Source of the DNA: Alphaproteobacteria bacterium
Lineage (GTDB): Bacteria; Pseudomonadota; Alphaproteobacteria; Geminicoccales; Geminicoccaceae
Direction: 5' to 3'
Length of the DNA stretch: 34,926 nt
Assembly (NCBI GenBank): GCA_027045875.1
Contig: JALUAG010000099.1
Span: 1 to 34,926, forward strand
Shown in pieces: positions 3,802 to 29,560 of this stretch. The position numbers and the translations under genes were made by a program. The notes under the pieces were generated by a model, which did no database searches, had not been told where the DNA came from, and was given only the letters and a program-made list of their open reading frames with translations. Positions within the stretch are counted from its first letter, which is position 1. The number at the start of each line of letters is the position of its first letter.

Positions 3802-4851
3802 TCAGCGGCCGCCGCCCCGGACCTCGGGGCTTCCGGCCAGTTCGTCGAGGATCACGATCAGGGCCTGGGAAGACTCGAGATGGAGCCCTTCGCCCCGCCT
3901 CGCGAAGGCCTGCAGCTTCTCCCACAGGGCCGCGAGGCGATCAAGCGGATGGCGCGCCGCGATCGCCGCCAGCGCCGCCCCCTCGCGGGGCACGAGCTCG
4001 ACCGCGGGCGGCAGGCCCGCTTCCGCCCGCACCGCCCGGCGGACGATCTCGCCGAGCAGGGCGAAGCCGCCCCAGCCGCCGCGATCGTCCGCGAACTCGC
4101 GGAGCCGTTCCGCGGCCGCCAGGAGATCGCCCCCGCCGGCGAGAGTGTCGAGCGCCCTGCCGTAGCCGTCGAGGAAACCGCTCCCGGCGAGCTCGACGGC
4201 GCGGCCGATGCAGCCCCCGGCCAGGGAGGCGAGACGTGCCGCCTCGTCGGCGGGCAGGGCCAGGAGTTCCGTGAGCGCCCGCGCCACCAGCGGCTCCTCG
4301 AGCGGCCGCAGGGCGAGCCGGGCGCAGCGCGAGAGGATGGTCCCCGGAAGGGCGGCCGGCGTCTGGGCGACCAGCAGGAACACCACCCGCGGCGGCGGTT
4401 CCTCGAGCATCTTGAGGAGCGCGTTGGCGGCGTTGCGGTTGAGACGGTCCGCCTCCTCCACCATCACCACCCGGTAGCCCGCCCGGGCGGGCGTGGCGGC
4501 GAGGCGTTCGAGCAGGCCGCGGACGTCCCCCACCAGGATCTCCTCGCTGCGCCGCTCGCCGCCCCCCCGTTCGAGGAGATAGAGCTCGGGATGGGCGCCG
4601 GAGGCCACCTGCCGGAACAGCGGATCGTGCGGATCGTGACAGCTCTTCCACCCCCCGGGGCCGGCCAGCAGCTCGCGGGCCAGATGCCAGGCGAGGGTCG
4701 CCTTGCCGACCCCCTTCGGCCCCCGCAGCAGCCAGGCATGGGGCATGCGGTCGCGGTCCATCGCCCGGCGCATCCGGGCGACCGCCCGCTCGTGGCCGAA
4801 CAGCCGCGGGTTGTGCCGCGGTGAAGGCGGTTCCCGTCTCTCCTCCGTCAT
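3802..4851 (-). CDS. holB: DNA polymerase III subunit delta prime
   Basis: A 349-residue AAA+ clamp-loader subunit. Walker A is GPKGVGKAT near residue 45. A degenerate Walker B with VEEADRLN is followed by NALLKMLEEPP, and the SRC motif in ILSRCARL is typical of clamp-loader subunits that sense the neighbouring ATPase site. The N-terminal text (NPRLFGHERAVARM) matches the alphaproteobacterial family. Only one of the zinc-module cysteines of E. coli delta prime is evident (SCHDPHDP). Its ATG overlaps the tmk stop as ATGA (4848-4851), so it is translationally coupled to tmk, its usual partner. It would act in loading the beta clamp at replication forks. Confidence 0.94.
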   Translation of the reverse strand: MTEERREPPSPRHNPRLFGHERAVARMRRAMDRDRMPHAWLLRGPKGVGKATLAWHLARELLAGPGGWKSCHDPHDPLFRQVASGAHPELYLLERGGGERRSEEILVGDVRGLLERLAATPARAGYRVVMVEEADRLNRNAANALLKMLEEPPPRVVFLLVAQTPAALPGTILSRCARLALRPLEEPLVARALTELLALPADEAARLASLAGGCIGRAVELAGSGFLDGYGRALDTLAGGGDLLAAAERLREFADDRGGWGGFALLGEIVRRAVRAEAGLPPAVELVPREGAALAAIAARHPLDRLAALWEKLQAFARRGEGLHLESSQALIVILDELAGSPEVRGGGR

Positions 4852-5492
4852 CCCCCGAGCCCGAAACGCCTGCGCACCTCCTCCCAGACCCGGTCCGCCA
4901 GCCGGTCTTCGGCGAGGGTCGCATCGAGCACCAGAAAGCGCCCGGGTTCCCGGCGTGCGAGTTCGAGAAACCCTTCGCGGATCCGCCGGTGATAGTCGAG
5001 CCCCTTGGCCTCGAAGCGCCCGTCGCCGCCGTCCGCCCGTCGCCGCCGCAGCCCGGTCTCCGGCGGCAGGTCGAGGAGCACCGTGAGATCGGGCCGCAGC
5101 CCGCCGAGCGCGGGCTCCTGCAGACGGTCCACGAGCTCGAGACCGAGCCCGCCGGCGAGGCCCTGGTAGACGCGGGTCGAATCGGCGAAACGGTCGCACA
5201 GCACCCAGCGGCCCGCCGTCACGGCCGGCAGGATCACCCGCGCCACATGGTCGCTGCGGGCGGCGAGGAACAGATAGAGCTCGGCCAGCGGCAGCCATCT
5301 CTCGGCGGCGCCGTCGAGCAGCAGGCGGCGGATCGCCTCCGCCCCCGTCGTGCCTCCCGGTTCGCGGGTGGAGAGTTCCGGGATTCCCGCCGCCCGCAGA
5401 CGCCGGGCGAGATGGGCGAGCTGGGTCGACTTGCCCGCGCCCTCTCCGCCCTCGAAGGTGATGAAGGGTGCGGACGCGCGCCCGGCGCTCAG
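4848..5492 (-). CDS. tmk: Thymidylate kinase with a probable CTG start
   Basis: Phosphorylates dTMP to dTDP. The P-loop FEGGEGAGKST begins near residue 13, TREPGGT follows, and DRFADSTRVYQG is the dTMP-binding DR(Y/F) motif. From CTG 5492 the protein is 214 residues, normal for Tmk. No ATG, GTG or TTG exists in frame between the preceding stop and the P-loop; the first is a GTG at 5246 that would delete the whole ATP site. The CTG overlaps the dacA stop as CTGA, imitating the usual ATGA coupling, and a GGAGG sits 6 bases upstream. The gene identity is certain; the exact initiation codon is inferred. The stop overlaps the holB start. Confidence 0.93.
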   Translation of the reverse strand: MSAGRASAPFITFEGGEGAGKSTQLAHLARRLRAAGIPELSTREPGGTTGAEAIRRLLLDGAAERWLPLAELYLFLAARSDHVARVILPAVTAGRWVLCDRFADSTRVYQGLAGGLGLELVDRLQEPALGGLRPDLTVLLDLPPETGLRRRRADGGDGRFEAKGLDYHRRIREGFLELARREPGRFLVLDATLAEDRLADRVWEEVRRRFGLGG

Positions 5493-6628
5493 GACGCCCC
5501 TCCGACGAGGTAGCCGATGGCGCCCATGATGCGCCCCAGCATGCCGGCCTTGGGCACCTCCCCGCCGGCCACCAGGGGCACGGTCAGCGGCTCGATCCCG
5601 GGTGCCGTGACCACCAGGGTCCCGAGCTCCTGTCCCTCGCTCACCGGCGCCGGCACCGGATTGTCGTAGCGCACCCGCACCTCCAGATCCTCGCGCGCCT
5701 GGCGCGACAGGGTGACGGCGACCAGCTCCCGGCTGACGAGGGGCACCTTCTCCGCCTCCCCCAGCCAGACGTCGGCCTCGACCACCGGCACACCCGGTTC
5801 GAACAGCCGGTACTCGCGGAACTCGCGGAAGCCGAACTCGAGCAGGCGCTCCGCCTCGATGGCCCGGTCCCGCGCCGATTCGAGCCCGGCCACGACCAGG
5901 ATCAGGCGCCGGCCCTCGCGCTCGGCGGTGGCCACGAGACCGAAGCCGGCCTCCTTGGTGTAGCCGGTCTTCATGCCGTCGACGCCGGGGACCTTCTTGC
6001 GCAGGAGCGGATTGCGGTTGAACTGGCGGATGTTGTTGTAGGTGAACTCCCGCTGAGAATAGAAGGTGAAGTACTCGGGAAACTCGCGGATGATCCGTCG
6101 TGCCAGCATCGCCAGATCGCGCACGCTCATGTAGTGGTCGGGATCGGGCAGACCGGTGGCGTTGACGAAATTGCTGTTGGTGAGCCCGAGTTCGGCCGCC
6201 TTGGCGTTCATCAGCTCGGCGAAGGCCCGTTCGCTGCCGGCCAGCGCCTCGGCCAGCACCACCGAGGCGTCGTTGCCCGATTGCACGATCATGCCCCGCA
6301 GCAGATCCACCACCTTCACCCGGGTGCCGACCTGCACGAAGGTCCGCGAGCCGCCCGTGCGCCAGGCCTTCTCGCTCACCGGCAGCTCGTCCTCGAGACG
6401 CAGACTGCCCTCCTCGAGCCGCTCGAACACCAGATAGGCGGTCATCAGCTTGCTCATCGACGCCGGCGGCCGCGGCTCGTCGGCATTCTTCTCGAACAGC
6501 ACCTGGCCGGTCCGGTAGTCGATCAGGATGGCCGCCTTGGCGGCGGTGTCGAAGACCGCGGCGGCGGCCGCCCCCGGCAGCGCCGCGACCAGCAGCAGCA
6601 ACAGCGAGACACGGATGATCGCGAGCAT
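5489..6628 (-). CDS. dacA: D-alanyl-D-alanine carboxypeptidase (PBP5/6 type)
   Basis: A 379-residue low-molecular-mass penicillin-binding protein that trims the terminal D-Ala from peptidoglycan stem peptides in the periplasm. The catalytic motifs are complete: SMSK at residues 57-60 (Ser nucleophile), SGN at 117-119 and KTG at 220-222. A signal peptide occupies about residues 1-24 and ends in an alanine run. The C-terminus has the PBP5_C beta domain and a short amphipathic, glycine-rich helix likely to anchor it to the membrane. I start at ATG 6628, 7 bases after the rlpA stop, rather than at 6694 inside rlpA: the signal peptide begins there and GGATAGGA precedes it. Confidence 0.94.
   Translation of the reverse strand: MLAIIRVSLLLLLVAALPGAAAAAVFDTAAKAAILIDYRTGQVLFEKNADEPRPPASMSKLMTAYLVFERLEEGSLRLEDELPVSEKAWRTGGSRTFVQVGTRVKVVDLLRGMIVQSGNDASVVLAEALAGSERAFAELMNAKAAELGLTNSNFVNATGLPDPDHYMSVRDLAMLARRIIREFPEYFTFYSQREFTYNNIRQFNRNPLLRKKVPGVDGMKTGYTKEAGFGLVATAEREGRRLILVVAGLESARDRAIEAERLLEFGFREFREYRLFEPGVPVVEADVWLGEAEKVPLVSRELVAVTLSRQAREDLEVRVRYDNPVPAPVSEGQELGTLVVTAPGIEPLTVPLVAGGEVPKAGMLGRIMGAIGYLVGGAS
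5499..5503 (-). promoter_or_regulatory. Shine-Dalgarno GGAGG that decides the tmk start
   Basis: On the minus strand GGAGG is followed by GGCGTC and then CTG at 5492, an ideal 6-base spacing. It lies inside the last codons of dacA. No other in-frame initiation codon precedes the Tmk P-loop, so this site is the main evidence for non-ATG initiation at the CTG. Confidence 0.6.
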
Positions 6629-28377: not shown

Positions 28378-28877
28378 CCGAACGCACCGACCTCGTCCCC
28401 GGCGCTCCCTGCCCGCCCTTCGACATGCCGCTCGATCAGGGCGGTCGGGTGTCCCTCGAGAGCCTGCGCGGCCGCCCCTTCGTGCTCTACTTCTACCCCA
28501 AGGACGACACCTCGGGCTGCACCCGGGAGGCGGTCGCCTTCTCGGAACGGCATGCGGCCTTCGAGGCGCTCGGCGTGCCGGTGATCGGCGTGTCGCGGGA
28601 CAGTCTCGAAAAGCACCGACGCTTCCGGGAAAAGCACGGTCTCGAGGTGGCCCTCGCCAGCGACGAGACGGGCGCCGTCACCGAGGCCTTCGGGGTATGG
28701 GTCGAAAAGAGCATGTACGGCCGCCGGTACATGGGCATCGAGCGGGCCACCTTCCTGGTCGACGCCGAGGGGCGGATCCACCGGGTGTGGCGGAAGGTGA
28801 AGGTGCCGGGCCACGCCGAGGCGGTGCTGGCGGCCGCACGCGAACTCGTCGAAGGAAAGCCGGAGGTGTCCAGGTGA
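28374..28877 (+). CDS. bcp: Bcp/PrxQ-type thioredoxin-dependent peroxiredoxin
   Basis: A 167-residue peroxiredoxin. The peroxidatic Cys lies in KDDTSGCTREAVAF. The usual PrxQ resolving cysteine five residues later (GCTREAC in many homologues) is Val here, so this looks like a 1-Cys or alternative-resolving form; Cys13 in GAPCPPFD is the only other Cys near the N-terminus. The catalytic Thr (two residues before the SGC, TSGC) and the conserved Arg in ATFLVDAEGRI region are kept. It would reduce hydrogen peroxide or organic peroxides. ATG overlaps the glnE stop by 4 bases; its stop overlaps the next GTG start. Confidence 0.92.
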   Translation: MTERTDLVPGAPCPPFDMPLDQGGRVSLESLRGRPFVLYFYPKDDTSGCTREAVAFSERHAAFEALGVPVIGVSRDSLEKHRRFREKHGLEVALASDETGAVTEAFGVWVEKSMYGRRYMGIERATFLVDAEGRIHRVWRKVKVPGHAEAVLAAARELVEGKPEVSR

Positions 28878-29560
28878 GTCCGCGCACGCCGGGCCTCAAT
28901 GCGCGTCTGCGGGCCTATCTCCTGGAGGTCGGCCTGCGCGAACACCCGGCACTGCGCGCTCTGCGCGAGGTGACCGACCGGTTGCAGGAAGGTGGCATGC
29001 GCTCCTCCGCCGAACAGGCCCAGCTGCTCGCCTTCCTGGTCGAACTCACGGGCGCCGAACGGCTTCTCGAGATCGGCTGCTTCTCCGGCTATGCGACCCT
29101 CGCCATGGCGCTGGCCCTGCCGCCCGGCGGGCGCATCGTCACCCTCGACGTCAACGCCGACTGGGCGGAGATCGGCCGCCGGTACTGGCGGCAGGCGGGG
29201 GTCGAGGACCGGATCGAGCTGCGCCTCGGCCTCGCCCTCGACAGCCTCGACGCGCTGCTCGCCGAGGGCGCCCGCGGGAGCTTCGATCTCGTCTACATCG
29301 ACGCCGACAAGAAACGGTACGAGGACTATCTCGACCGGGCCCTCGGCCTCGTCCGGCCGGGAGGACTGATCGCCGCCGACAACGTGCTGTGGCACGGGGC
29401 GGTGGCGGATCCGGAGGATCGCAGCCGGCAGGCGCAGGCACTGCGGCGCTTCAACCGCCGGGTCCACGACGATCCGCGGCTCGCCCTCTGCATGCTGCCG
29501 GTGGGGGACGGCCTCACCCTGCTCCGCCTTCGCCCCCGAACCGGACCCGGCCAGCCATGA
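28874..29560 (+). CDS. SAM-dependent O-methyltransferase, class I (catechol/caffeoyl-CoA type)
   Basis: A 228-residue methyltransferase. The SAM-binding glycine loop is LLEIGCFSGYATLAMALALP, followed by IVTLDVNADWAEIGRRYW. The metal-binding Asp segment FDLVYIDADKKRYEDY and the IAADNVLWHGAVAD segment are characteristic of divalent-metal-dependent O-methyltransferases such as caffeoyl-CoA OMT and bacterial homologues. Substrate unknown. It starts with GTG 28874, overlapping the peroxiredoxin stop as GTGA, with GGAGG 7 bases upstream. A palindromic terminator begins 5 bases after its stop. Confidence 0.9.
   Translation: MSPRTPGLNARLRAYLLEVGLREHPALRALREVTDRLQEGGMRSSAEQAQLLAFLVELTGAERLLEIGCFSGYATLAMALALPPGGRIVTLDVNADWAEIGRRYWRQAGVEDRIELRLGLALDSLDALLAEGARGSFDLVYIDADKKRYEDYLDRALGLVRPGGLIAADNVLWHGAVADPEDRSRQAQALRRFNRRVHDDPRLALCMLPVGDGLTLLRLRPRTGPGQP

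Follow-up and report, generated by a model that had tools for sequence, protein, structure and literature searches.

A thymidylate kinase gene (tmk) of the Geminicoccaceae most likely begins with a recurrent and labile CUG start codon at a stop/start overlap with the upstream gene dacA, which would make it a variant of known translation coupling. The absence of a canonical start, the overlap, a Shine–Dalgarno (SD) motif, recurrence across genera and a CTG in the start column of a second gene are all seen directly in the DNA. From this pattern it is likely that tmk is translated from CUG 5492, with ribosomes that terminate on dacA reinitiating with the help of the SD.

The tmk locus and its putative start codon

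The window, the whole 34,926-nucleotide stretch of DNA that was analysed, shows the gene order SLT_2 transglycosylase, DPBB/SPOR protein (presumably RlpA-like), dacA, tmk, holB and metG (Table 1). The dacA product matches the profiles PF00768 (265 bits) and PF07943 (50 bits). dacA and tmk form a same-strand pair in which the stop codon of the first overlaps the putative start of the second, and dacA contains an SD motif. The minus-strand sequence across the junction is ...GGAGGGGCGTC-CTG-AGC..., and the 3′ end of dacA reads GGAGGGGCGTCCTGAGCGCC; CTG 5492-5490 and the dacA TGA have TG in common. The thymidylate kinase gene is essential, and a profile search of the window's genome returned a single PF02223 gene, this tmk.

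The earlier note had described a tmk frame with no ATG, GTG or TTG before the ATP-binding motif and a GGAGG six bases ahead of the CTG, and both descriptions were confirmed. Going upstream, the frame stays open as far as TAG 6638-6636, with 382 codons before the CTG devoid of ATG, GTG and TTG, and scanning from this TAG revealed no such codon until GTG 5246, which lies past the P-loop. The only in-frame NTG or ATT/ATC/ATA codons upstream of CTG 5492 are CTG 5768, ATC 5879, ATC 6281 and CTG 6365. The full tmk frame matches PF02223 with 164 bits (cut-off 27) across profile positions 1-181 of 185, P-loop included; the match of the open reading frame (ORF) from GTG 5246 is restricted to positions 70-181. 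Callers restricted to ATG, GTG and TTG would lose the ATP site of tmk. The truncation at 5246 that had been predicted for automated callers was borne out for the ORF lister, which gave 132 aa and is the sole basis for that statement.

Table 1. Features of the tmk locus and of the second gene discussed in the text
Feature	Position	Strand	Remarks
holB (DNA polymerase III delta')	3802..4851	-	PF13177, 125 bits; ATGA 4851-4848 overlaps tmk stop
tmk (thymidylate kinase)	4848..5492	-	214 aa read from CTG 5492; stop TGA 4850-4848
First canonical codon in tmk frame, GTG 5246	5244..5246	-	a start here would lose the P-loop
GGEGAGKST of Tmk, taken to be its P-loop	5424..5450	-	residues 15-23 from CTG; from translation
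CTGA, where tmk start and dacA stop overlap by 4 nt	5489..5492	-	from sequence; dacA TGA 5491-5489
Putative CTG start codon of tmk	5490..5492	-	frame without ATG/GTG/TTG; CTG at same position in G002
GGAGG, Shine–Dalgarno-like motif	5499..5503	-	inside dacA, 6 nt before CTG
dacA (D-Ala-D-Ala carboxypeptidase, S11 family, PBP5 C-terminal domain)	5489..6628	-	379 aa
O-methyltransferase, window copy	28874-29560	+	GTGA at start column

Recurrence of the tmk junction in the family

The family sample comprised 31 genomes, the single family of its order in the set; this agrees with a probable placement in Geminicoccales, an order with one named family in the taxonomy. tmk is present in 26 of them, with a dacA match directly upstream in 25 (the exception is L017). 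A CTGA at the dacA stop combined with a lack of canonical starts within 20 codons of the P-loop was found at 8 of the 26 tmk loci, distributed over 7 of 16 genera with the window's included: L002, L003 (g1), L012 (g7), L020 (g11), L021 (g3), L023 (g12), L027 (g9) and L112 (g10). These eight CTGs sit 9-15 codons ahead of the P-loop. At six of the eight loci the 100 codons that precede the P-loop contain no canonical codon, the sequence at L023 extending 115 codons beyond the CTG on that side; the exceptions, L027 and L112, carry a GTG in dacA, 12 codons ahead of the CTG. Five family members carry GTGA at the dacA stop (L004, L005, L006, L008 and L015), and four of the remaining 13 (L018, L019, L022 and L024) combine an in-frame CTGA with a canonical start 2-10 codons later. 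An in-frame ATGA, which the earlier note had envisaged close relatives might all carry at this place, occurs at the dacA stop in none of the 25 family tmk with adjoining dacA; L007 has an out-of-frame ATGA. The proposed start at CTG 5492 in a CTGA overlap is supported, and the arrangement is not unique to this locus: CTGA turns up in seven genera, and again at a second gene.

Recurrence also bears on the suggestion that a sequencing or assembly error conceals an ATG, GTG or TTG at tmk. Although the window belongs to a 110-contig assembly, CTGA stands at the identical place, in GGAGGGGCGTCCTGA, in G002, the one further genome of this genus that has tmk; it is found in eight separate genomes of seven genera, and the tmk contig of G004 is 4.97 Mb long. 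We give such an error almost no weight.

For control we used 126 tmk loci (122 distinct junctions), made up of 80 from a named genome collection, which are its best matches, nearly all labelled alphaproteobacterial and taken whatever their family, and 46 from same-class genomes, 20 of them chosen for long upstream open frames. All 126 offer tmk a canonical start between 5 and 30 codons ahead of the P-loop, and at 111 there is one at 7-15 codons. A missing canonical start alone proves little, because some 26 codons without ATG, GTG or TTG are not rare; the case for the putative CTG start is carried by the comparative counts, 8/26 in the family versus 0/126 control loci. The same loci inform on another near-cognate start for tmk, at ATC 5462 or, in L112, at an ATC just before the CTG. 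Many family members do have an ATC three codons ahead of the P-loop Glu, but this ATC codes for the Ile of FITFE, and the nearest canonical start at least seven codons ahead of that Glu in 122 of the 126 control loci argues against initiation so close to it; we regard an ATC start as extremely improbable.

Very improbable, too, is a −1 frameshift near the dacA end that would yield a DacA–Tmk fusion supplying Tmk. It would draw on a tmk frame that lies at −1 relative to dacA and stays open over a long upstream stretch, and on G-runs near the junction in some genomes. The eight CTGA junctions, inspected by eye, have no slippery heptamer in common, and a dacA in another frame or a stop in the tmk frame ahead of its start separates the two genes at L007, L010, L011, L013, L014, L016 and L026; the fusion would moreover be expected to bear the DacA export signal, leaving a kinase without ATP.

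L002 and L003 share their six last dacA codons, which is not exceptional, and junction conservation between the two congeners is not above chance. On a family tree built from DacA and Tmk the CTGA state undergoes at least six changes, of which well-supported branches demand three; counts as low came from 113 of 500 shuffles, so that no clustering is shown. A single descent of the state is unsupported because CTGA is scattered on this tree, on which the state comes and goes and is evolutionarily labile.

The profile search found no PF02223 match above the cut-off in G001, G011, G024, G025 and G027, genomes with an estimated completeness of 82-100%. Their tmk-side dacA is represented by 39-42% matches or a partial match of 63%, with none in G001. 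These five genomes are uninformative, because they have no PF02223 match and their dacA is weak, partial or absent; our guess is that assembly gaps lie behind the missing tmk.

Putative CTG-only starts across two genomes and in an O-methyltransferase gene

Coding potential was scanned with start codons ignored, and the score loss was then calculated for the case that only ATG, GTG or TTG starts are allowed; the scan, which is blind to CTG starts with a canonical codon close downstream, covered 993 complete genes in 1.2 Mb of G004 and 521 in 0.66 Mb of G000, the window's genome. tmk showed the largest loss of the 993 genes in G004 (45 bits), followed by an O-methyltransferase (36 bits). In G000 the tmk loss was again 45 bits, second of 521 behind L139:2992-3588 (81 bits). 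Clean CTG-only starts numbered 2 in 993 genes and 1 in 521, all at CTGA overlaps. A release-factor-2 frame without its own start, returned in both genomes, served as positive control; its main frame lacks a canonical start at L150:4700-5782 in the window's genome and at C1:724062-725126 in G004. We take this gene to be prfB, in which a start-less main frame is expected from programmed frameshifting.

An in-frame CTGA in the start region of a gene is common by itself. In-frame overlaps in G004 comprise 73 CTGA, 96 ATGA, 46 GTGA and 11 TTGA, and those in G000 comprise 29, 61, 31 and 5, respectively; ATGA, GTGA and TTGA overlaps thus involve 153/993 genes in the former and 97/521 in the latter. 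Most CTGA junctions have a canonical start no more than 10 codons away, and 45 of the 73 in G004 have one downstream. A strict filter, admitting no canonical codon within 20 codons downstream or 30 upstream, retained ten CTGA junctions in G004, where only tmk and the O-methyltransferase show a large loss; of the other eight, one, with a run of nine A ahead of it, loses 18 bits and the remaining seven 0-5.5 bits. The two strict junctions of G000 are tmk and another with 5.5 bits. Among the 102 CTGA genes (73 + 29), 35 of which were matched in the other genome's DNA, no further clear case beyond tmk and the O-methyltransferase emerged.

Three other frames came up in these genomes. L139:2992-3588, in the window's genome, is a strong coding frame right after an in-frame TGA, with 89 codons that lack a canonical start and no Pfam match; it is probably a broken gene. 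In G004 the frame L116:5790-6359, with a C-terminus that looks OmpA-like by eye, is connected to the upstream gene by the nine-A run just ahead of the CTGA, which is possibly a sequencing error or a slippage site. L259:2146-2742, in the window's genome, is a SPASM-domain frame (PF13186) with no clear start; it resembles the 3′ remnant of a radical-SAM gene that an indel has disrupted.

The O-methyltransferase (PF01596) was matched in 22 of the 31 family genomes. The table of its start column comprises 19 orthologues; L307, which lacks a start there, L308, matched weakly where a contig ends, and the weak matches L309-L315 were left out, and the column of L298 was shifted two codons by hand. It contains 10 ATG, 5 GTG, 1 TTG and 3 CTG. 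The CTG orthologues, L288 (G004), L300 (G024) and L301 (G019), the last two from one genus, all have CTGA, and the frame ending at that TGA is open for 176-193 codons; in G004 the coding scan called a gene there. L300 and L301 continue with MTARTIGL, close to the MSPRTLAL of other orthologues, and L288 is less alike. Canonical in-frame codons are absent from L301 within 100 codons upstream and before +41; they stand at −73 and +20 in L300 and at −51 and +43 in L288. This column provides the clearest comparative sign of an apparent replacement of a start codon by CTG in the family. CTG at tmk and CTG at the O-methyltransferase do not always go together, because G019 has a canonical tmk start and G024 no tmk match.

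Proposed initiation at the overlap and its relation to known systems

The mean SD duplex energy at tmk is −7.95 for CTG starts (n = 8), −5.26 for GTGA (n = 5) and −5.39 for the others (n = 13). The SD at CTG is stronger with a one-sided p of 0.0012, or 0.0029 without L003, with kinship ignored and the start in canonical genomes chosen by the author, which could bias the result. The O-methyltransferase gave −8.6 for CTG (n = 3) versus −4.2 for ATG (n = 10), with p = 0.022 against all others, kinship again ignored. Strong SDs at putative CTG starts point to compensation as much as to the lowered Tmk output that the earlier note thought possible. SD compensation is reported for GUG and UUG starts in PMC5622118, where one test found alphaproteobacteria without a significant start-codon difference in SD conservation. 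Those starts resemble tmk in pairing a weaker start codon with a stronger SD; tmk differs in that its putative codon is CUG, in several genera of one family, and switches to CUG were counted there at 2/61,358 for AUG, 1/5,080 for GUG and 1/2,468 for UUG.

The same SD could instead recruit 30S subunits de novo, the CUG being used in the ordinary way, the overlap reflecting compact packing, and dacA translation having a minor role or merely unfolding the mRNA. The GGAGG with its 6-nt spacing and an anti-SD duplex of −10.0 kcal/mol in both L002 and L003 would suit this account, as would the stronger SDs reported for non-AUG starts (PMC5622118). Against it, all three clean CTG-only genes among the 1514 scanned lie at overlaps, against a background of 153/993 and 97/521 genes with an in-frame ATGA, GTGA or TTGA overlap, a small number and not independent evidence, because two of the three are tmk itself. 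On balance we consider de novo binding unlikely, though to be taken seriously.

Under the preferred reading, reinitiation at the CUG, ribosomes would end dacA at the overlapping UGA, the SD inside the dacA end would hold the terminated ribosomes at the junction, and these would restart on the CUG with initiator tRNA. We infer initiation in vivo, this route and its efficiency. With the TGA fixed by the 4-nt overlap, one and the same base opens the start codon and closes the last dacA codon. In these GC-rich genomes it could be either G or C, and CUG may be good enough as a start where a strong SD is combined with the hand-over of ribosomes.

Coupling by termination-reinitiation at stop-start overlaps (NTGA, −4 nt) is described in PMC6728339, PMC10666635 and the review PMC12548453. 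dacA-tmk resembles these pairs in its 4-nt overlap, the SD inside the upstream gene and co-directional genes, and differs in its putative CUG start. "CUG" is absent from the main texts of all three sources and "CTG" from those of PMC6728339 and PMC12548453, the review writing the motif as NTGA. PMC4648390, on reinitiation at non-canonical codons, was set aside as its 40S subunits denote a eukaryotic system. A search of the open-access literature for CTG/CUG starts, whether in bacteria generally, at overlaps, in thymidylate kinase genes or in this family, brought up no earlier report that we recognised as describing this case.

Published figures for CUG counsel caution. CUG makes up 0.024% of bacterial initiation codons, and a measurement quoted in the same source puts its output at 0.86% of that of AUG (PMC11497404), which counts against a CUG start. 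So does a CUG upstream of Caulobacter dnaA that bound ribosomes in vitro and was unused in vivo (PMC8443254). Like tmk it is an alphaproteobacterial CUG with an SD; unlike tmk, dnaA has a canonical AUG.

Lineage-wide relaxation of start selection is not supported: both scanned genomes have few CTG-only genes, and IF3 was matched in seven of the eight CTGA genomes (the exception, G020, is 93% complete). A pattern for the initiator-tRNA anticodon stem with three G-C pairs matched in none of eight genomes. A looser one matched in 10 of 12, with GGCTCATAACCT in most, class relatives included, and with no match in G008 and G010, both CTGA genomes; where it matched, the stem has one form, whether the genome is a CTGA genome, a family member lacking CTGA or a relative in the class.

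The infC gene of E. coli, which starts at AUU and is autoregulated by IF3, offers another example of a non-canonical start in an important gene; it differs from tmk in that codon and in its regulatory loop, no comparable loop being evident for Tmk. More generally, we tentatively propose that reinitiation at stop/start overlaps loosens the requirement on the base that opens the start codon. CUG might then serve as a working fourth NUG start in this family, confined to NTGA junctions with a strong SD and exchanged in the course of evolution with GUG, AUG and UUG. That a single-copy essential gene probably starts at CUG in members of seven genera suggests an effect of the overlap on the rules of start selection; a ribosome that has just terminated on one gene may be less selective about where it starts the next.
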